Below are positions 4,420-54,503 of a stretch of 64,000 nt of DNA, piece by piece. The translations under genes were made by a program, and so were the position numbers. Source of the DNA: Photobacterium atrarenae (lineage in GTDB: Bacteria; Pseudomonadota; Gammaproteobacteria; Enterobacterales; Vibrionaceae); NCBI RefSeq assembly GCF_024380015.1, contig NZ_CP101509.1, positions 1,364,001 through 1,428,000 of the forward strand, given 5' to 3'. Within the stretch, counting starts at the first letter, position 1. Every line of letters begins with the position of its first letter. The notes under the pieces were generated by a model. That model was not told where the DNA came from, searched no databases, and was given only the letters and a program-made list of their open reading frames with translations.

Positions 4420-5597
4420 GCTGGCGGGAATTGATTCAACAGGAGCTGAAAGCGATCTTCACCAACCCGTCGATCTTGTTTACGGTGTTTGGCGGGGTGC
4501 TGATTTACTCGTTTCTTTATCCCTTGCCTTATACCAATCAGCTGCCGCGGGAGCAGCAGGTGGCGGTGGTGAATCTGGATCAGAGCCAGCTCAGCCGCGA
4601 GCTGGAGCGAATGGTGGATGCGACGCCCCAGGTGGCGTTGACGCACCGTGCCGCCGGGATGGCCGAAGCTAAAGCCATGATGAATCGCGGACAGGTCCAG
4701 GGGTTATTGGTGATCCCCGAATCCTTTGCCCGGGATTTGCTGCTGGGCAAATCACCGACTTTGGCTTTTGCTGGTGATGCAGCATACTTTCTGGTTTATG
4801 GCACTGTGGTGGAAGGGTTGGCGCAAGCTGCCGACACACTCGGGGCACAGGCGAAAGTGGTGCGGATGGTGATGTCTGGTGAGAATATCGCGCTGGCAGC
4901 GCAGCAGCACACGCCGATCCACCTGAATCTACAACCGGTGTTTAATCCCGCAATGGGGTACATCGACTACATTGTCCCGGCAGTTTTTGTCCTGGTCCTG
5001 CACCAGACGTTGTTGATCGCGGTATCGCTGCTAGGCTGTGGCCAGCGGACGCTAGCGCCGGCGGCGGGTCAGCGAAACTACTGGCAACTGGCGCCGGCCT
5101 GGCAATTAGTACTGGTACGCGCTCTGATCTTCGTGGTGATCTATTTGCCGTTGGTGATGTATTACTTTGGCTTTAGTTTTACCTATTACCACATCAGCCG
5201 TCTGGCGACGGTCTCTGATCTGCTGGCGATGACGCTGCCGTTTTTGTTGGCGGTGATAGGCTTCGGGATGATCCTCGGTCATCTCTTACCTCGCCGTGAG
5301 CTGGCGATCGTTGTCGTGCTCTTGAGCTCGATCCCACTGATTTTTTCGCTTGGCTTTATCTGGCCGTCGTCGATGATTCCGGTGCCGATCCAGAGCCTGG
5401 TTCAGCTGATCCCGGCCACGCCGGCGGTGAATGCGTTTTTGCGCTTAAACCAGATGGGGGCCGAGTTCCATCAGGTTTTGCATCTGTGGTTACAGTTGTG
5501 GGGGCAAGCGATAGTCTATGGCGGTATCGCCTGGTTGCTGCAGCGCCGTAGCAGGCAACGGGGTATGCCGCCGCAGGTTCCAGCCGGATCGAGTTAA
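4416..5597 (+). CDS. ABC-2 type transporter permease (second of pair)
   Basis: This 393-residue protein has the same plan as the preceding permease: N-terminal helix, extracytoplasmic domain opening with VAVVNLDQSQLSRE, and a C-terminal membrane block. The matching LDQSxLSR motif shows the two are paralogues that likely form a heterodimer. It ends the operon and is followed by a strong terminator. No ATPase gene lies in the operon or nearby, so energy supply must come from a subunit encoded elsewhere or from another mechanism. Confidence 0.88.
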   Translation: MSWRELIQQELKAIFTNPSILFTVFGGVLIYSFLYPLPYTNQLPREQQVAVVNLDQSQLSRELERMVDATPQVALTHRAAGMAEAKAMMNRGQVQGLLVIPESFARDLLLGKSPTLAFAGDAAYFLVYGTVVEGLAQAADTLGAQAKVVRMVMSGENIALAAQQHTPIHLNLQPVFNPAMGYIDYIVPAVFVLVLHQTLLIAVSLLGCGQRTLAPAAGQRNYWQLAPAWQLVLVRALIFVVIYLPLVMYYFGFSFTYYHISRLATVSDLLAMTLPFLLAVIGFGMILGHLLPRRELAIVVVLLSSIPLIFSLGFIWPSSMIPVPIQSLVQLIPATPAVNAFLRLNQMGAEFHQVLHLWLQLWGQAIVYGGIAWLLQRRSRQRGMPPQVPAGSS

Positions 5598-47262: not shown

Positions 47263-47658
47263 TTATCGCTGTTGTTTGCGTGCCTGCTGCTTGAGTTCAT
47301 CATCCAGCTCGTCCGGATAGACGACCAGTCCGTCTTCTTCCTGGTTCGGGAAAATCACAATAGCCAGTTCATCGTCTTCCAGGCCGGCGGTCCAGCGGCT
47401 GTGCCACTTGTTGATCGAAATGGCCTCGGCCTTACAATGTTCCCATTCACCGGTTGCCCAGGCCTCAGCAAATTCTTGATTTGGCCAGACCGGCACACAG
47501 TCTTCATCTTCAGTATTTAACATGACACAGCCATGCTCATCGGTAAGGATCCAGATCTGTCGATTGGCGACCACTTCTTTCACCAGGTATTTATAGCGTT
47601 TTTCCGCATCAAATGCCTGGATTTCAGCGATCCGGGAAGCATCAAGTGAGTTGGACAT
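47263..47658 (-). CDS. DUF2750 family protein
   Basis: A 131-residue acidic protein with the family pattern RYKYLVKEVVANRQIWIL, DEHGCVML and VPVWPNQEFAEAWATGEW, INKWHSRWTAGLEDDELAIVIFP-type residues following. DUF2750 proteins are small soluble proteins of unknown role. A paralogue lies at 59984-60337. Confidence 0.85.
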   Translation of the reverse strand: MSNSLDASRIAEIQAFDAEKRYKYLVKEVVANRQIWILTDEHGCVMLNTEDEDCVPVWPNQEFAEAWATGEWEHCKAEAISINKWHSRWTAGLEDDELAIVIFPNQEEDGLVVYPDELDDELKQQARKQQR

Positions 47659-47732
47659 GTCTTCTTTCCTGTTACTGCGATTGTAAGCGATATAGCATAG
47701 AGGAAAATTAGACTTTAGTCATTGAAAGGTGG

Positions 47733-47753
47733 GCCCCGGTATTGAACCGGGGC
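47733..47753 (-). terminator. GC-rich hairpin after the beta-barrel gene
   Basis: GCCCCGG pairs with CCGGGGC around a 7-nt loop, 10 bp beyond the stop of the minus-strand beta-barrel gene. On that strand CACCTTTC follows, a poor U-tract. Confidence 0.5.
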
Positions 47754-47762
47754 GGATTAAAT

Positions 47763-48809
47763 TTACTTGAGGGTGTAGGGTACGCGGACCGAGAGCTGGA
47801 AGTCCGGTGCATCGGCCGTCAGGCCTGCGGTGGCGCCAATGTTGATTGTGGTGTCCCGATCCACGGCATAATTTGCACCAAAGGAGAGCGAGTCAAGCTG
47901 CAGCAGCTTGGCATCGGTTGCAGTAGATCCGTTGATTTTCGATTTAAGAATGGTTTTATGACTCAGGCCGATACTAAACGAAAATTTAGGGTTGACCGCA
48001 AAGCCCATCCCGGCACTGAAACCAATGGTGTCGCCCAAGTCAATGGTATCGACCCGGATATCCTGAGCATTTTGGCCATCTTCATCGGCTACGGTGATGT
48101 CGACTTCCACGTCATCTTTAATGTTCCAGATATAGCTGAAATTCATGAAGATGACGGCCGGGTCAATCGGCATGATCATTGAAATACCGGGTTCGATACT
48201 GGGGAAGCCGGAACCGGTTGGCAATTCTTCAAAGTCGTTGAGGTTGTTCACCGGGACATCATAGGGGGACTTCCCGGTTGTACTTTTAAACCGCAGGCTC
48301 CCAATCCAGTAAGGTGCTTCTTGCATGTTGATTTGATACTTGAAAGCCGCTTCGATATCACCCAAGTCACTGCCGTCCACGGTTCGCAACGAGGCTTGGT
48401 TGGAGCCACTATTCAGATCACGCTCGGAAATGGAGTCGGAGCGATAAACCCAGGGGATCCGAGCCTCAACTTCTAGGCGGTTGGTGATACCGTAGCGCCC
48501 GGAGACACCCAGTGTGAGTGTGGTTCGGTCGATGTCACTGGCGCGGATCAAGCCGATGATCAAAGAAGGGAGGACGGTATAGCCAACAACGGAGACCGAG
48601 TTGGATGAGTTCTGGGTATAGGACAGGGACGTATCCAGCACGAAAGAGCCCTTGGGCGTGAGGACACCGGGTTGCTCGAGGATATCGGCAACAGTCTGGA
48701 CTCGTTTGGGTTTTTCATTTTTGTTGGATGCACTGGACTCTTCTGCTGCAACTGAGACAGAGAAGAAAGCAAGCAGCACGATCAGACTTTTTAACTTGAA
48801 AATACTCAC
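47763..48809 (-). CDS. Outer-membrane beta-barrel protein (FapF-like / phenol-MetA-type transporter by appearance)
   Basis: A 348-residue protein with a signal peptide (cleavage near SVAAEE). A short polar N-terminal segment (VQTVADILEQPGVLTPKGSF) is followed by many amphipathic strands and a terminal SVRVPYTLK. This fits a beta-barrel of the phenol MetA / FapF class. FapF is the porin that exports amyloid subunits in Pseudomonas. It is divergent from the secreted-protein genes at 49.3-52.3 kb, and both sides probably share the 476-bp spacer for control. Function as an export pore for them is inference. Confidence 0.75.
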   Translation of the reverse strand: MSIFKLKSLIVLLAFFSVSVAAEESSASNKNEKPKRVQTVADILEQPGVLTPKGSFVLDTSLSYTQNSSNSVSVVGYTVLPSLIIGLIRASDIDRTTLTLGVSGRYGITNRLEVEARIPWVYRSDSISERDLNSGSNQASLRTVDGSDLGDIEAAFKYQINMQEAPYWIGSLRFKSTTGKSPYDVPVNNLNDFEELPTGSGFPSIEPGISMIMPIDPAVIFMNFSYIWNIKDDVEVDITVADEDGQNAQDIRVDTIDLGDTIGFSAGMGFAVNPKFSFSIGLSHKTILKSKINGSTATDAKLLQLDSLSFGANYAVDRDTTINIGATAGLTADAPDFQLSVRVPYTLK

Positions 48810-49285
48810 AGTTCCCTCACTTACCTTACATAGGTATGCCCCAAAATATTATGGATAAAGTGGTGTAACGTTATGATTCAGAGATATAACTGAATGAAAT
48901 TTTTGTCGATGGTTTCATTATGATTTTGTTGTCAGGTTCAGGTTGGCTCATTGATAAGAAAATCCTAGCTTATCTGAGAAATTCATGTTAGCTGAGAATA
49001 AAAAATAGATGTCTTGGGGTTGAGAGGGTCATAATTTTTTATGAATCAGTCATATTTTGAGAAATTGTCTTAGAAATAAAAATAATCCATTGTATCAGAG
49101 AAATTTATCATGAGTTGGGCGTTAGAATGCAAAGTCATTGATGAGGTAAATTTTATGCTCAAATAGCTCCGGATTTATTAAAAATAATACAAAAGTGCGA
49201 GTTGCCAAAACTATGATTAAGTTATCTCGCGGCACAACGCGAGTGATTATAAAAAATAACAACTCAACATATTTGGAGTAGGATC
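48810..49285. promoter_or_regulatory. Divergent promoter region of the amyloid-like cluster
   Basis: A 476-bp, visibly AT-rich spacer between the beta-barrel gene and the first secreted-protein gene. It includes a sequence with sigma54-like GG-N10-GC spacing (49115-49131) and a 6-bp hairpin (CTCGCG/CGCGAG, 49226-49243) just before the ribosome site. Several near-palindromic AT tracts may bind regulators. Confidence 0.45.
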
Positions 49286-49891
49286 ATGCGTAAATCACAT
49301 ATCGCACTATTGGTAGCAGTTGTTAGTTCTCCGCTTGCTCTGGCTGACGACCCATATGGTTATCATAATGACCCATATTCAAATTCTGGCAGCTCAAGCT
49401 ACGGATATAATGATCATGATGACGGTGATATCACTGTTACAGACTCATTTAATAAAGATATCGACAAAAAATTAACCGTCTCTCATGAGAAAAATGTAAC
49501 CGTCAAAGATAGTTACAATAGTGATGATGATACCATGAAGCTGTATAACGTAAACAATAAGAACATCTATGAGTTTACCGACAACAGCAAATGGGACTAT
49601 AGCAAAAACATCAAAATTGATATTGATGAGAAATACTACATGGCAACATCCTACATGGATGGCTCAGTGACCTACAGTGATGTGACCTATGGCGGTGCAT
49701 GCTGTAATCAAGGTGGCTGGGGTCATTATGGTGGTGATGATGCTCCATCTTCAGTCCAAGTTACACACAGTAACTCAATGCAAGATGCTTACACCGGTGC
49801 GTCAGGGATTAATATTGCAGGTCAAAACGCAGGGAACAACTCGCTGGTTCAACAAAGCGCGAGCACCAATGCAATGTTAACCAGTCAATAA
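49286..49891 (+). CDS. Secreted subunit-like protein A with GGACC motif (paralogue of 50456 gene)
   Basis: A 201-residue protein with a signal peptide (RKSHIALLVAVVSSPLALA, cut before DDPYG). The mature part is Tyr/Gly/Asp/Asn-rich, then Lys/Asp-rich, with a double cysteine (TYGGACC) and a C-terminal GINIAGQNAGNNSLVQQS segment. That tail has the Q/N/G spacing of curlin- and Fap-type amyloid repeats without being a clear member. It shares signal, GGACC and tail with the gene at 50456. TTTGGAGTAGGATC precedes the ATG and is repeated ahead of the paralogue. Likely a surface or biofilm component; function unproven. Confidence 0.78.
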   Translation: MRKSHIALLVAVVSSPLALADDPYGYHNDPYSNSGSSSYGYNDHDDGDITVTDSFNKDIDKKLTVSHEKNVTVKDSYNSDDDTMKLYNVNNKNIYEFTDNSKWDYSKNIKIDIDEKYYMATSYMDGSVTYSDVTYGGACCNQGGWGHYGGDDAPSSVQVTHSNSMQDAYTGASGINIAGQNAGNNSLVQQSASTNAMLTSQ

Positions 49892-49898
49892 CACATAG

Positions 49899-49923
49899 CT
49901 GAGGGCTGTTCGTCAGCCCTCAG
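49899..49923 (+). promoter_or_regulatory. Intercistronic hairpin touching a ribosome site
   Basis: CTGAGGGCT pairs with AGCCCTCAG around GTTCGTC. Its 3' arm overlaps the AGGAGGAAG ribosome site of the next gene (ATG 49933). It has no T-tract. It could stabilise the upstream mRNA end and lower translation of the second gene, giving more of the first protein. Confidence 0.6.
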
Positions 49924-49932
49924 GAGGAAGTC

Positions 49933-50265
49933 ATGAAATATTTAACACTGATTGCGATGGCTTTCATCTCGTGTGGGGCAATTGCAGATGAGTTGGATAT
50001 TCTAGCAAACTCTGATTCTTTGGGTGAAGATGTAATGACCATGTCTCGTGGTGGTCAATACGAATTACAAATTGATAATATTCACGCAAGTTCAGATATG
50101 TATGGCGATGTTGCAGGTAATGGAGCATATAACAATATAACGGGAGATAACATTATTGCTGAGGGTACCTTTAGTGATACTTCCGGGATTGTCAATGTGG
50201 TTCAAAACACTGGTAACAATGTGTTAATTCAAAATGCGACCGTGGTTAACCTGACATTGAAGTAA
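49933..50265 (+). CDS. Small secreted protein B with RGG motif and amyloid-like tail
   Basis: A 110-residue protein with a signal peptide (YLTLIAMAFISCGAIA). A short segment LGEDVMTMSRGGQ follows in which Leu30, Met35, Gly40 and Gly41 stand at the -12, -7, -2 and -1 places of a double-glycine site. The rest is NNITGDNIIAEGTF and GIVNVVQNTGNNVLIQ, Q/N/G-rich strands like the tails of the neighbouring paralogues. It may be a minor subunit or nucleator, possibly trimmed by the C39 peptidase at 51126. Strong AGGAGGAAG ribosome site. Confidence 0.75.
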   Translation: MKYLTLIAMAFISCGAIADELDILANSDSLGEDVMTMSRGGQYELQIDNIHASSDMYGDVAGNGAYNNITGDNIIAEGTFSDTSGIVNVVQNTGNNVLIQNATVVNLTLK

Positions 50266-50455
50266 ATTGTTAGTCTATCTATGCTGGCATATGAAAATAT
50301 GTCAGCGACCAAAAAACTTTGGGATGTAAATTGGTTTCGCAGGACATTATAACAAATACTTCTGTTGTCGTATCTCGGCTGTTCAAAACAGCTGACAGTA
50401 CAATAACAATGCACGGATATTAAAAATATAATCATATAATATTTGGAGTAAGATC
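50266..50455. promoter_or_regulatory. Spacer with hairpins before secreted gene C
   Basis: GCTGGCATAT and ATATGTCAGC (50283-50306) form an imperfect hairpin, and GCTGTT/AACAGC (near 50380) another. The final bases ATATTTGGAGTA-GATC repeat those ahead of the gene at 49286, so the leader was duplicated with the gene. Confidence 0.5.
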
Positions 50456-51019
50456 ATGCGTAAATGTAATCTTATGCTAGTAGCAGCACTCGTGGCCTCT
50501 CCATTAGCTCTGGCTGATGGATATGATTACGGCTATGACCATGATGGTGATGTCACCATTGAAGGTAGTGGAAACCTCTCGGTGTATAAAAATGCTGAGT
50601 TTTCCAAAACCAAGAATATTTATAAAAGCAATGTCGGCAATACGGATGATGATAAGTTGATTTTGAAGGATGTCGGCAATTACTACAAAAATACCAAGGA
50701 AATTAACAAAGAAGTCGATGCTTCCTTTACCAAAAAATTCTCGAAGGAAGTAGAGAAATATCTGGCTGAATCCAAACTTTATGGTGACGTGATGGACGCG
50801 AGTGTTACCTATGGTGGTGCATGTTGCAAAGGCAACCCAAGTACAGTTGTGGTTGATCATGAGAACAGCATGTACCGTGCGTTTGGTGACTCGTCCGGCA
50901 TCAGCATGGCAGGCCAGAACGTAGGTAACAACTCGATGGTACAACAAACAACCAGCACAAACGCGGCGTTGGTTGGCTCAGGTGGGGGCGTAGTCAGTCC
51001 GGATACCGGCAACTACTAA
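50456..51019 (+). CDS. Secreted subunit-like protein C with GGACC motif (paralogue of 49286 gene)
   Basis: A 187-residue protein with a signal peptide (RKCNLMLVAALVASPLALA, cut before DGYDY). The middle is Lys/Asn/Asp-rich (FSKEVEKYLAESKLYGDV), then VTYGGACCKG and the tail GISMAGQNVGNNSMVQQT. It shares signal, double-Cys motif and Q/N/G tail with the 49286 product, but the central sequence has diverged. Fap subunits also carry a paired-Cys (CxxC) motif; here the cysteines are adjacent. Followed by a terminator-like hairpin. Confidence 0.78.
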   Translation: MRKCNLMLVAALVASPLALADGYDYGYDHDGDVTIEGSGNLSVYKNAEFSKTKNIYKSNVGNTDDDKLILKDVGNYYKNTKEINKEVDASFTKKFSKEVEKYLAESKLYGDVMDASVTYGGACCKGNPSTVVVDHENSMYRAFGDSSGISMAGQNVGNNSMVQQTTSTNAALVGSGGGVVSPDTGNY

Positions 51020-51027
51020 CCAGGGTT

Positions 51028-51049
51028 AAGGGCCGTTTACGGCCCTTTA
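51028..51049 (+). terminator. Terminator-like hairpin after secreted gene C
   Basis: AAGGGCCG pairs with CGGCCCTT around TTTA, followed by TATT. It may partly separate subunit genes from the peptidase gene. Confidence 0.7.
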
Positions 51050-51125
51050 TTCCAGTAGGTGAACCATAGAATGCAACAATGGTTTTCTTGGAGCTCTAGG
51101 AACACCAGAAACTTCGGTATCGATT

Positions 51126-51800
51126 ATGAAAAGAGCAGTTATATTGACATTGGGCCTGTTTGCAAGCAGCAGTCTTTATGCGCTTGATTATTTTCCGAGC
51201 CGGGGAGCGTATAATGTTCATGTAAAAAGTTATCAGGAAAAACTATTTGGTGATGTTTATCGCCAGCAATATGATTTTAGCTGCGGCTCTGCGGCGGTAG
51301 CTTCCCTGGTGACGTATCACTATGGACGGACAACCCAGGAAGAGGCAGTATTCGAATTCATGTTCAAGAATGGTAATAAAGAGAAAATTGAAAAGCAGGG
51401 CTTTTCAATGTTGGATATGAAGAACTATTTAGTATCGATTGGTCTGGATGCGAATGGATATAATCTACCACTAGATAAATTTAGTGAGTTAAAAATTCCG
51501 GCAATTACAATTGTGAACTTTGATGGTTATATGCACTTTGTCGTGATTAAAGGTATGAATAGCCGTCAGGTGATTCTGGGAGATCCGTCACGTGGTACTA
51601 TGGTGATGCCAATCAATGATTTCAAAAAATATTATAAAGGCGCCGTGCTGCTAGTAAAAAGCCATGTGAAGCAAGGAAGAGAAAGTTTTATAACAGATGA
51701 AAACTATAATATATATACGCCGTCGCCAGCGTCAGAAGCGATAGCTAGGGATTCACTTGCAACCTTTAGTATTACACTACCGGGAGCAAACGATTATTAG
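51126..51800 (+). CDS. Periplasmic C39-family cysteine peptidase (FapD-like)
   Basis: A 224-residue protein with a signal peptide (VILTLGLFASSSLYA). Its peptidase domain has all expected residues: Gln47/48 and Cys53 in RQQYDFSCGSAAVASL, His137 in GYMHFVVIKG and Asp153 in ILGDPSRGTM. C39 peptidases usually sit on bacteriocin ABC exporters and cut after double-glycine leaders. Here there is no ABC domain, so it acts alone in the periplasm, as proposed for FapD of the Fap amyloid system. The next gene encodes a protein with a good double-glycine site. Confidence 0.87.
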   Translation: MKRAVILTLGLFASSSLYALDYFPSRGAYNVHVKSYQEKLFGDVYRQQYDFSCGSAAVASLVTYHYGRTTQEEAVFEFMFKNGNKEKIEKQGFSMLDMKNYLVSIGLDANGYNLPLDKFSELKIPAITIVNFDGYMHFVVIKGMNSRQVILGDPSRGTMVMPINDFKKYYKGAVLLVKSHVKQGRESFITDENYNIYTPSPASEAIARDSLATFSITLPGANDY

Positions 51801-51808
51801 AGGCTAGT

Positions 51809-52312
51809 ATGAAAAAGTTAACTCGTATTTTCGTGGCATCAGCAATCGGAGGTGCTGCTGTTGTTGCTCATGCATCAATCAACTTTATGGATGAGTTGAG
51901 ACTGATGTCTCTTAGCGAGAGCGAGATGGCTTCTATCCGAGGTGGGTTTGTGTCAATTAACGACAGTGTTATTAACATCGGCCTGTCGATTACTACGGCG
52001 ATTAATGGTGAAAAAGTACTGTCGACTCATATAGCAGATTTTACCATTAATAATGGTATGCTGGTCAGCTCATCCGGAGAAAAAATGGTTAAGATTGATG
52101 ATCCTCTGAAGCATATTCGAGTCGAAAATAATGAGGTACAGCTTGGAACAATTGATTCGGATGCATCTGGATTTGTGATCCAAAACTTTGATGATGGGAC
52201 CCAAATTAATAGTCAAACCATCATGGATGTGGAAGCGGATATGGATGGCTATATCAAGCAGACCATTTACCAAAATCGGTTAAATAATTCTTTGCTGTTC
52301 AGCAGCCACTAA
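51809..52312 (+). CDS. Secreted protein E with textbook double-glycine leader motif
   Basis: A 167-residue protein with a signal peptide (cut near AHAS, residue 22). Then comes LSLSESEMASIRGG: Leu35, Glu39, Met40, Ile43, Gly45-Gly46 stand at -12, -8, -7, -4 and -2/-1 of the double-glycine consensus read by C39 peptidases. The remaining 120 residues are beta-rich and acidic (INDSVINIGLSITTAING, IQNFDDGTQINSQTI) without cysteine. It begins 8 bp after the peptidase gene, so enzyme and presumed substrate are co-expressed. Family not recognised. Confidence 0.78.
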   Translation: MKKLTRIFVASAIGGAAVVAHASINFMDELRLMSLSESEMASIRGGFVSINDSVINIGLSITTAINGEKVLSTHIADFTINNGMLVSSSGEKMVKIDDPLKHIRVENNEVQLGTIDSDASGFVIQNFDDGTQINSQTIMDVEADMDGYIKQTIYQNRLNNSLLFSSH

Positions 52313-52361
52313 GGCTATATCAATATTAAACAGAACACATAGTAATTTTTTGTCATTTGAT

Positions 52362-52391
52362 AAGGTACAGTGCATCCACTGTACCTTTTTT
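52362..52391 (+). terminator. Rho-independent terminator of the cluster
   Basis: AAGGTACAGTG pairs with CACTGTACCTT around CATC with T6 following. It separates the secreted-protein genes from the regulator gene. Confidence 0.9.
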
Positions 52392-52606
52392 GCTGTTACC
52401 AAGCGATTCCTGTCGCATTGGGTATTATTTTGTTACTGATTTTGTTGTTTGTAACTGATTGAAGTCAAAGTGTATTATACCTGTCTCATCATGACTAATC
52501 CTTTTTGAAGATAATTCTTACATCTGATACCCTGCAGATTCGTTATTTATTGCCTATATTTTTAAGACATCAATAATAATATGTACATTGAAAGAAGGTG
52601 ACTTCT

Positions 52607-53950
52607 ATGGTGGCTCAATGTCAAAATAAAACAATCAATGGTCGACTTGTTGCAATTGGTTGTAACTACGAACCTTGGATTGCGCTTCTTGAACAATCAG
52701 GTTGGAAAACCCATTGTTGTTATGACTTACGTACGGCTGATTCAATCCTGGAAGAGTTCAGTCCTTGTATATGCATTGTTGATTTAAGCAATAATGATTT
52801 TAGCTTAAATAGCATTTCTTTAAGGGCAAATAAAACAAAGCAAGTTAAATGGATTGCAATCATTAAAAAAGAACAGTTGAAAACGGATGCCATCTGTCAG
52901 TTCATCAATAACTTTTGTGTCGATTATTTCTCGGTGCCGATTCCGGGAAGTCATTTACTGGACACTGTTGGCCATCAGCTGGGCATGTTGGAGATTGAAG
53001 CCAGCTCATGGGTAGAAGTGACCTCGCAGCATGATATGGGGCTATTCGGTGAGTCTAAGTCGATCAAGCAGTTGCGAGACATGGTCCGCCGCGTTGCAAT
53101 GACCGAAGTCAATGTGTTTCTGACCGGCGAGAATGGCACCGGAAAAGAGTTAATTGCCAAATCTATCCATAACCTGTCAAAACGAAGAAATGAGCCGTTC
53201 ATTACCGTCAACTGTGGCTCCTTAACCAAGGACGATGAAAAAGCCTCATTTTTGGATGGCACTTATGTCCAAGAGGATGGTTCTCATTTCAATGGTACGA
53301 TCTTACTCGACAATGTCGAGGAGCTCTCAAAAGAATTACAGGACGAATTACTTACATTCCTCCAGACACCTGCGGGAGATTCGCTGGAAGAGGACTCGTC
53401 GGCAGATGTTCGCATTGTTGCCTCATCCAGCGCCGATCTGGAAGCGGCAGTCGCTAATGGTGAATTCAGCAAGGAACTGTATTATCGCCTGAATGTCTTT
53501 CATATTAAGGTACCGACCTTACGTGAACGAGGCTCCGATATTTTTCTGCTTGCCGAGACCTTTCTCACCAAGTTTGCCCGTGAATACAGCACGATGGCAT
53601 CAAGTTTTTCCGAGGATTCCAAACAGTTGCTATTGCGCTACAGCTGGCCGGGTAATGTACGCGAGCTGATCAACCAAGTTAAGCGGGCAGCACTGTTGGC
53701 CGAGGGCAACGAAGTTCGGGCCGAACACTTTGACTTGCCGAGCAAGGCGAATCTGAAGCAGAGTCTGAGAAATATCAAAGATGAAGCGGAAAAAGATGTC
53801 TTGGTGGCGGTGCTCGAAACACACCGCGGGCAGGTGGCTTCGGCTGCTAAGGATCTTGGCGTCTCCCGGGCAACGATGTATCGCTTACTGAACAAGCACA
53901 ACATCGTGCCCGATGTCAGGCACTACAACAATGGGTATGCGCGAGAATAG
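52607..53950 (+). CDS. VpsR-like AAA+ regulator lacking the GAFTGA loop
   Basis: A 447-residue regulator: N-terminal receiver-like domain (IVDLSNNDF near the phospho-Asp position), an AAA+ domain with Walker A GENGTGKE, a Walker B changed to TILLDNVEEL (Asn in place of the catalytic Glu), Arg-finger segment ELYYRLNVF, WPGNVRELIN, and a C-terminal Fis-type helix-turn-helix (GQVASAAKDLGVSRATMYRLL). The GAFTGA loop that touches sigma54 is missing. VpsR of V. cholerae, a biofilm activator that uses cyclic-di-GMP and sigma70, is the closest known type. ATG 52607 has AAGGTG upstream; GTG 52598 is the alternative. Confidence 0.85.
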   Translation: MVAQCQNKTINGRLVAIGCNYEPWIALLEQSGWKTHCCYDLRTADSILEEFSPCICIVDLSNNDFSLNSISLRANKTKQVKWIAIIKKEQLKTDAICQFINNFCVDYFSVPIPGSHLLDTVGHQLGMLEIEASSWVEVTSQHDMGLFGESKSIKQLRDMVRRVAMTEVNVFLTGENGTGKELIAKSIHNLSKRRNEPFITVNCGSLTKDDEKASFLDGTYVQEDGSHFNGTILLDNVEELSKELQDELLTFLQTPAGDSLEEDSSADVRIVASSSADLEAAVANGEFSKELYYRLNVFHIKVPTLRERGSDIFLLAETFLTKFAREYSTMASSFSEDSKQLLLRYSWPGNVRELINQVKRAALLAEGNEVRAEHFDLPSKANLKQSLRNIKDEAEKDVLVAVLETHRGQVASAAKDLGVSRATMYRLLNKHNIVPDVRHYNNGYARE

Positions 53951-53990
53951 CACATAAAAAAAGTCCGGCTTGCCGGACTTTTTTATGTGC
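53951..53990. terminator. Bidirectional terminator
   Basis: CACATAAAAAAGTCCGGC and GCCGGACTTTTTTATGTG form an 18-bp stem with A- and T-runs at the base. It ends the regulator gene and the opposing small gene. Confidence 0.9.
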
Positions 53991-54092
53991 CAGAGAATTT
54001 CTTGATAGGGAGCAGTGCAGCTTCCCGGCCCTGTAGCCCTGGCTGATTCTATCGGAAATTACAGCCTTTCGAATCCAGCCATTTGCGTCAAT

Positions 54093-54224
54093 TTAACGCA
54101 GAATAATAATATCGTTGGCCAACCCATCGTCCTGATCGCCTACCAGATAGATGGTGTCGGGTTGCTCAACCATGAGCTCGTCTTCGGTTGGCGCAACAAA
54201 CGTGTATTGGTTTAAAGCGTCCAT
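54093..54224 (-). CDS. Small acidic protein, 43 residues
   Basis: ATG 54224 is preceded by AGGAAAATT, a good ribosome site. The peptide opens MDALNQYTFVAPTEDEL and ends with hydrophobic ANDIIILR; it is strongly acidic with no signal peptide. It faces the VpsR-like gene tail-to-tail across the terminator. The longer frame to 54302 is not supported. The family is unknown. Confidence 0.5.
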   Translation of the reverse strand: MDALNQYTFVAPTEDELMVEQPDTIYLVGDQDDGLANDIIILR

Positions 54225-54503
54225 AATTTTCCTGTTTATGTATGCAGCCTGGCTGCGTGCAGTCTTATCTATAGAGCCAACAGTAATGAGATGAAATGAC
54301 AATTCGATGAAAGAGAGATCAAGATCTCATGACAGTGGGATGCCTGGTTAGTATTTGCTCAACTATCTGCGCCGGACGGATGCAGAAAGTTGACAAAGAT
54401 TGAGATTCAATGGTTGACAACGGGTATTCATATCAAGCGTTTCAATAAATTCTGGCTCCGGTTCAAAATCATCGGCTGTTCTCTAATCGGCCCTTGAAGA
54501 AGC

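Follow-up and report, generated by a model that had tools for sequence, protein, structure and literature searches.

Genes and layout of the cluster

The window analysed here is a 64,000-nucleotide stretch of the Photobacterium atrarenae genome (5.4 Mb in three contigs) that spans 1.364-1.428 Mb of contig C2. Within it we studied a seven-gene cluster at 47763-53950 that resembles the Fap fibre-export system. A gene for an outer-membrane barrel is divergent from an operon in the order SubA, sm1, SubB, C39 peptidase and sm2, and a terminator-like hairpin stands between the operon and the gene of a VpsR-type regulator (Table 1). A sequence-only reading of the stretch had listed a barrel, two subunits, two small proteins, a C39 peptidase and a VpsR-like regulator, and all were found where it had placed them. 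Sec signal sequences were recognised by eye in SubA, SubB, sm1, sm2, the peptidase and the barrel, and the two subunits, described in that reading as paralogous secreted proteins, were 45% identical.

Table 1. Features of the cluster in window coordinates (aa, amino acids; Q/N/G, glutamine, asparagine and glycine)
Feature	Position	Strand	Basis
FapF-type outer-membrane barrel, 348 aa	47763..48809	-	Sec signal, PTG motif; FapF model and structure matches
5' region of SubA	49176..49285	+	Alignment of six Photobacterium loci; inverted repeat CTCGC...GCGAG
SubA, secreted subunit, 201 aa, Q/N/G tail, Cys-Cys	49286..49891	+	Sequence, alignments
Intercistronic hairpin 3' of SubA, 10-bp perfect stem	49899..49923	+	Hairpin search
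sm1, small secreted protein, 110 aa, between SubA and SubB	49933..50265	+	Signal ~1-18, leader-like 19-41 ending SRGG, tail
sm1 leader-like segment, with putative C39 cleavage site behind Gly41	49987..50055	+	Motif
SubB, secreted subunit, 187 aa, SubA paralog	50456..51019	+	Sequence, alignment
Intercistronic hairpin 3' of SubB, 8-bp perfect stem	51028..51047	+	Hairpin search
Sec-exported stand-alone C39 peptidase, 224 aa, FapD/FilB relative	51126..51800	+	PF03412, FapD, FilB matches
sm2, small secreted protein, 167 aa, occupies FapE's place	51809..52312	+	Signal ~1-22, leader LSESEMASIRGG ending at residue 46
sm2 leader, with putative C39 cleavage site behind Gly46	51875..51946	+	Double-glycine-type motif
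Terminator-like hairpin, 11-bp stem then T run, operon end	52362..52387	+	Hairpin search
VpsR-type regulator, 450 aa, without GAFTGA	52598..53950	+	Pfam VpsR 8.6e-48

The barrel matched positions 98-418 of the NCBIfam FapF model (2.1e-49; 168.5 bits, where the equivalog cut-off is 700) and the solved FapF structures 5o65, 5o67 and 5o68 at 1.5e-35 to 2.1e-34, the best match covering residues 35-345. It also carries the PTG motif noted for FapF in PMC6173800, which was found in 57/82 barrel matches from loci of the same kind (sister loci, see below) and in 13/13 Fap barrel matches. The peptidase matched Pfam PF03412 (6.6e-23), NCBIfam FapD (1.4e-38; 132 bits, far under the equivalog cut-off of 330) and FilB (4.5e-30), as well as solved peptidase domains of peptidase-containing ATP-binding cassette (ABC) transporters (PCAT; best 2.3e-8). 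Its residues Q47, C53, H137 and D153 are invariant in 102/102 aligned peptidases. The protein stands alone, with no ABC transporter part, and family searches of the cluster proteins identified no ABC transporter gene in the cluster.

The adjacent Cys-Cys in the GGACC motif of the subunits was invariant in 14 aligned sequences and kept in at least 90% of 37 subunit homologs, among which those with an organism name were all from Photobacterium. One Vibrio subunit has CxxC and others have no Cys at this site. Adjacent cysteines in place of CxxC, which the sequence-only reading had regarded as distinctive, are thus a trait of Photobacterium subunits and not a mark of the whole system. A tail-pattern scan found one tail in each protein, as that reading had it, and the relation it had proposed between the tails of sm1 and the subunits was borne out by a profile P-value of 4.7e-9. 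The end of sm2 (P 2.9e-8) and part of FapE (P 3.8e-6) also matched the sm1 tail. The tail pattern, which was of our own making, found 50/87 sister loci and 1/15 Fap loci, and therefore many sister tails were missed, Halomonas among them. Subunit candidates ranged from 164 to 735 aa and were D/N/S-rich in the Vibrio loci read. A structure prediction of SubB gave no confident fold (mean predicted local distance difference test score, pLDDT, 42.6); this model and that of sm2 (mean pLDDT 55.5) were too weak for a fold search.

Separation from Fap and distribution

Sister loci were collected from named genomes by a scan with a mostly Vibrionaceae peptidase alignment, from which the best 80 of 587 relatives were taken as a set of nearest kin and no census. 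With the window proteins as queries, the 82 stretches (these 80 loci, the window and the short L001) contained the barrel in 77, sm1 in 51, sm2 in 30 and this regulator type in 52 cases. The loci without a barrel (L001, L035, L036, L037 and L080) are either short or stop close to the peptidase. In many Halomonas and other loci that gave no match in the single-sequence search, reading by eye showed sm1- and sm2-like proteins in the corresponding places. Loci typically follow the order subunit, sm1, C39 peptidase, sm2, with the barrel in the vicinity; Photobacterium has a second subunit gene between sm1 and the peptidase.

Among 52 Photobacterium genomes, the stand-alone peptidase (E <1e-60) was found in 30 and the barrel in 32; both occurred together in 30, neither in 20, and the barrel alone in two, which are assemblies of ~570 and ~780 contigs. 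The sequence-only reading had offered two ways in which it could fail, namely that the genes do not co-occur in related genomes or that the proteins belong to a characterised unrelated family. The genes do co-occur, and the subunits and small proteins matched no unrelated characterised family above a curated cut-off. Outside Photobacterium, the peptidase was found at E <1e-60 in 12 genomes from a draw of 150 of the family. One of the 30 Photobacterium genomes has an interrupted peptidase copy (G072, C2:288441-289099), and Vibrio sp. SCSIO 43009 carries a copy of the sister cluster with an incomplete peptidase frame (L162) on a plasmid of 136 kb, where it adjoins an integrase gene.

For comparison with Fap itself, the FapD model was run over 369 genomes of the class and gave matches in 77, none above the cut-off; the loci of the 15 best genomes served as Fap candidates (Fap loci), and five from genomes lower in the ranking were added to the sister loci. 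The minimal Fap repeat published in PMC3792158 was found with at least two matches in each of two open reading frames (ORFs) in 15/15 Fap loci and had 0 matches in the window. Of the 87 sister loci, 19 contained an ORF with a single match and L036 contained one with three. The FapE model matched 15/369 genomes, exactly those of the Fap loci; it gave no match for sm2 or anywhere in the window's genome, and the FapB and FapC models found none among the window cluster proteins at E 1 or better. No candidate gene for FapA was seen, and the protein at the FapA position of the Fap locus L141 also lacked a model match. NCBIfam recognises FapB, FapC, FapD, FapE and FapF in L141, each under its cut-off. 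In a tree of 102 peptidases (L001, L160 and L037 dropped), a 100/100 branch divided 18 Fap from 84 sister rows, the latter from Gamma-, Beta- and Alphaproteobacteria and two 'delta' assemblies. In three Halomonadaceae loci (L050, L051 and L063), a second peptidase copy falls on the Fap side of this branch, ~6 kb from a first copy that falls on the sister side, indicating that the two systems coexist. Taken together, the FapF and FapD profiles match and those of FapB, FapC, FapE and curlin do not, and the description of the cluster as Fap-like but distinct holds: homology to FapF and FapD was established for its barrel and peptidase, and neither the Fap repeat nor a match to the FapB, FapC or FapE models was found.

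Leader motifs, hairpins and regulator

Both small proteins carry leader motifs that had gone unnoticed in the sequence-only reading. An LSDxELxxMRGGF-like stretch following a signal-like start was found in the ORF behind the peptidase in 79/85 sister and 15/15 Fap loci; the motif itself served to choose the ORF from those close to the peptidase end. The pattern fixed positions -7, -3, -2, -1 and +1. The window's own locus L001 and L160, whose protein is that of L055, were dropped from the counts, and the sister loci without a match were L038, L042, L043, L058, L075 and L076, for several of which no sound downstream ORF was picked. The free positions conform to the classical double-glycine leader consensus, both in the 79 sister rows (-12 L/I/V/A/M in 79, -8 E in 52, -4 L/M in 61) and in the 15 FapE rows (-12 L/V/I in 15, -8 E in 10, -4 M/I/L in 14). 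Residue -1 was Gly in 79/79 sister rows and Arg or Lys in 15/15 FapE rows, under a pattern that permitted all three.

For a control, the other signal-like ORFs of these loci were scanned with a stricter first pattern, which had found 14/15 Fap and 76/87 sister loci; it was carried by 7/838 of them, under a crude signal rule that recognised 63/90 true sites. Of the seven, two lie behind second Fap-type peptidases (L050 and L051) and are FapE-like, and the others are a small ORF (L078), a FapF-type barrel (L143), a peptidase start (L062) and two unrelated ORFs. The small ORF of L078 (6410-6823, plus strand) and another in front of the Fap genes of L141 (9749-10168, minus strand) have a signal and a leader-like LNDDQLGQVRGLF or QLDDVRGRF, and they possibly encode a further C39 substrate.

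A search for named Pseudomonas FapE gave none among 25 proteins, and the FapE leader was therefore checked on the 15 Fap loci and Aeromonas caviae; FapE of A. caviae, a member of a genus reported to have Fap (PMC3792158), carries ELADGELAHLRGRY. As FapE thus bears the same leader with Gly-Arg or Gly-Lys, its leader is probably cleaved by the same step in Fap. For FapE of L141 we placed the cut after residue 57, which agrees with the report that FapE is the only Fap protein without peptides in its first ~70 residues (PMC5557850). In that paper, catalysis by FapD was needed for FapC secretion, and FapE was suspected as FapD substrate from GG and GA motifs, with canonical C39 sequences said to be missing. 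The substrate was described as unclear in 2017 (PMC5557850) and undetermined in 2018 (PMC6173800), Fap proteins again being said to lack canonical C39 sequences, and a 2025 review states that FapD is thought to process FapE and FapF (PMC12822426).

Profiles of sm2 and FapE aligned with P 8.8e-7 over 32 columns when the leader was included. We did not adopt the identification of sm2 with FapE, because the mature parts did not align convincingly as profiles (P 0.018). The sm2 model places a short helix (residues 37-44) directly before R-G-G, which fits a helical leader and carries little weight at such confidence. The leader of sm1 has a looser form, found in 64/80 rows by a pattern that fixed -12, -7, -2 and -1 with favoured letters at -8, -3 and -1 (L001, L160, L040 and L058 removed). 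Its residue -1 varies (G 26, R 25, K 7, M 4, A 1, Q 1), and therefore the residue at the cut is not strict. In the 15 Fap loci, the region preceding the peptidase showed no sm1 counterpart.

The AT-rich composition noted in the sequence-only reading is real for 48.5-53.5 kb and does not extend to the barrel gene (third-position GC 0.62). The GC content of 1-kb windows was 0.36-0.43 within this stretch versus 0.47-0.55 on both sides within 40-62 kb, transition windows excepted. The stretch around the peptidase was GC-poorer than its own locus in 5/5 Photobacterium loci sampled, by at least 2 points in 2/3 Vibrio loci sampled, and GC-richer in two high-GC loci. We rejected recent transfer as the cause, because a place adjoining a gene that we take to be DUF2750-like is common to 9/9 named Photobacterium loci.

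Across ten Photobacterium loci, a perfect hairpin followed SubB in 10/10 (stems 6 to 11) and SubA in 6/10 (stems 10 or 11). After the peptidase there were stems of 6 only, in 3/10 loci, and after sm1 stems of at least 8 in 5/10, the window not among them; a stem of at least 8 arose in 1/500 shuffled stretches. Hairpins behind fibre-subunit genes often accompany high subunit expression. Upstream of SubA, the 5' region is strongly conserved in six Photobacterium loci, with a variable loop within its inverted repeat, which suggests a candidate operator or 5' leader RNA structure. An Rfam scan of 47500-54500 gave nothing at gathering scores, and consensus promoter matches (24, versus a shuffled mean of 16.1, sd 3.9) were not used. 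The regulator carries a VpsR domain and lacks GAFTGA in 10/10 Photobacterium orthologs, as does VpsR itself. In three Vibrio loci read by eye a LuxR-type regulator lies upstream instead, and both regulators suggest control by the biofilm programme.

Interpretation and comparison with known systems

Based on the above results, we think it fairly probable that the cluster is a Fap-related fibre exporter of a separate, widespread lineage, in which C39 cleavage of the sm2 and sm1 leaders licenses export and assembly. SubA, SubB, sm1, sm2, the peptidase and the barrel would enter the periplasm via Sec, and the position of the leader behind a Sec signal is in keeping with the export of the peptidase itself. 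There the peptidase would recognise the leader of sm2, and the looser one of sm1, and cut after R-G-G. Once cut, sm1 and sm2 would interact with the FapF-type barrel and act on the subunits as seed, anchor or gate, and the leaderless subunits would cross the barrel and assemble outside through their Q/N/G tails. The VpsR-type regulator may couple expression to the biofilm programme, and the hairpins after the subunit genes may favour subunits over enzyme. A canonical leader at a fixed place in the cluster, and the same in FapE, provides exact cut sites to test, and a second lineage of fibre-type export would be added in Vibrio, Photobacterium, Halomonas, Marinobacter, nitrifiers and methanotrophs.

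Several points weigh against this proposal. The motif, the partner genes and their co-occurrence are what the sequences show; cleavage, export and fibre formation, and with them the amyloid or fibre nature of the product, are inferred. The leader search selected its ORFs by the motif, the sm1 leader is missing by pattern in 16/80 rows, and sm2 and FapE barely align once the leader is removed, global mode being no better. Subunit tails match Fap repeats weakly (P 0.002; score 15.4 versus 14.0 for the best of 30 shuffles), and the structure models are too poor for use. Judged by its length, the window barrel also has no room for the FapF coiled coil, the match starting at residue 35 and FapF model position 98; this coiled coil is needed for FapC secretion in Fap (PMC5557850). 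Other sister barrels are partly longer, up to 523 aa.

The cluster could instead be a true Fap operon that has diverged, like those already described in Vibrio, with SubA and SubB as FapB and FapC and sm2 as FapE. The shared order of peptidase and leader protein with a barrel nearby would fit, as would the leader match of sm2 to FapE and a moderate match of the sm1 tail to Fap repeats (P 1.2e-4, no shuffle control), and the published Vibrio Fap has a one-repeat FapB and a separated fapF (PMC3792158). However, its FapC has 16 repeats, which the Vibrio loci studied here lack, and the repeat is absent from the window and present at all in 20/87 sister loci, against two repeat-bearing ORFs in every Fap locus. 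The FapE model is confined to the genomes of those Fap loci, the peptidases lie on opposite sides of the 100/100 branch, and the coexistence of both kinds in three Halomonadaceae loci further weakens this explanation, which we consider unlikely.

Alternatively, the same machinery may export a non-amyloid adhesin or matrix protein that forms no cross-beta fibres. One tail per subunit, the long D/N/S-rich bodies in Vibrio and the lack of a confident fold would suit such a cargo, as would the VpsR-type regulator, which suits any matrix protein. We hold this to be rather unlikely, given that the characterised FapF cargo is amyloid (PMC6173800) and that the Q/N/G-rich tail is common to SubA, SubB and sm1. 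A bacteriocin or peptide-signal locus is suggested by the C39 peptidase with bacteriocin-type double-glycine leaders and by several relatives annotated 'bacteriocin resistance protein', yet it is very improbable, since the leader lies behind a Sec signal, the cluster has a FapF-type barrel and no ABC transporter, and the leader proteins measure 110 and 167 aa and have a subunit-type tail.

Among known systems, curli (csg) also combine secreted Q/N/G-rich subunits with a dedicated outer-membrane pore, but no curlin or Csg match was obtained for any of the seven cluster proteins. The PCAT bacteriocin exporters share the peptidase fold and leader type; the window peptidase differs in being stand-alone and Sec-exported, without ABC fusion, and its leader follows a Sec signal. 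The fil operon of Acinetobacter (FilA to FilF) has relatives of the peptidase and, in FilC (8e-14), of the barrel. These matches are far under the cut-offs (FilB 104.9 of 475 and FilC 51.8 of 630 bits), gene order and cargo differ, and FilA belongs to the DUF6160 family (8.3e-7), to which sm2 scores 11.6 of 27 bits, under the gathering score. In L161, the signal sequence of FilA (4714-5553) leads into SMDDAALSAATGQ, which looks leader-like by eye, and FilB may act as the peptidase for FilA.

Fap comes closest, with a FapF-type barrel, a Sec-exported C39 peptidase, a leader protein encoded directly behind the peptidase, Q/N/G-rich secreted proteins and often a regulator of the same type nearby. 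The window system differs from it in lacking the Fap repeat and any FapB, FapC or FapE model match, in its separate peptidase clade, in the extra sm1, in Gly instead of Arg or Lys at the proposed cut, and in a barrel with no room for the coiled coil. Pairs of fapD and fapF in five further phyla were noted in 2018 and left undescribed in section 6 of that paper (PMC6173800). Our literature search, with subscription journals largely outside its reach and supplements excluded, found no paper naming the sister system or an R-G-[G/R/K] leader. A wider proposal, which we regard as plausible but tentative, is that these systems form one class of Gram-negative fibre exporters made up of the Fap clade, the possibly broader clade of the window system and perhaps a third clade, fil. 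They would share a FapF-type barrel and a periplasmic C39 peptidase acting on double-glycine-type leaders that follow a Sec signal, and export would be licensed by leader removal from one or two minor proteins, at G-[R/K] in FapE, G-G in sm2, G-G or G-[R/K] in sm1 and G-Q in FilA.

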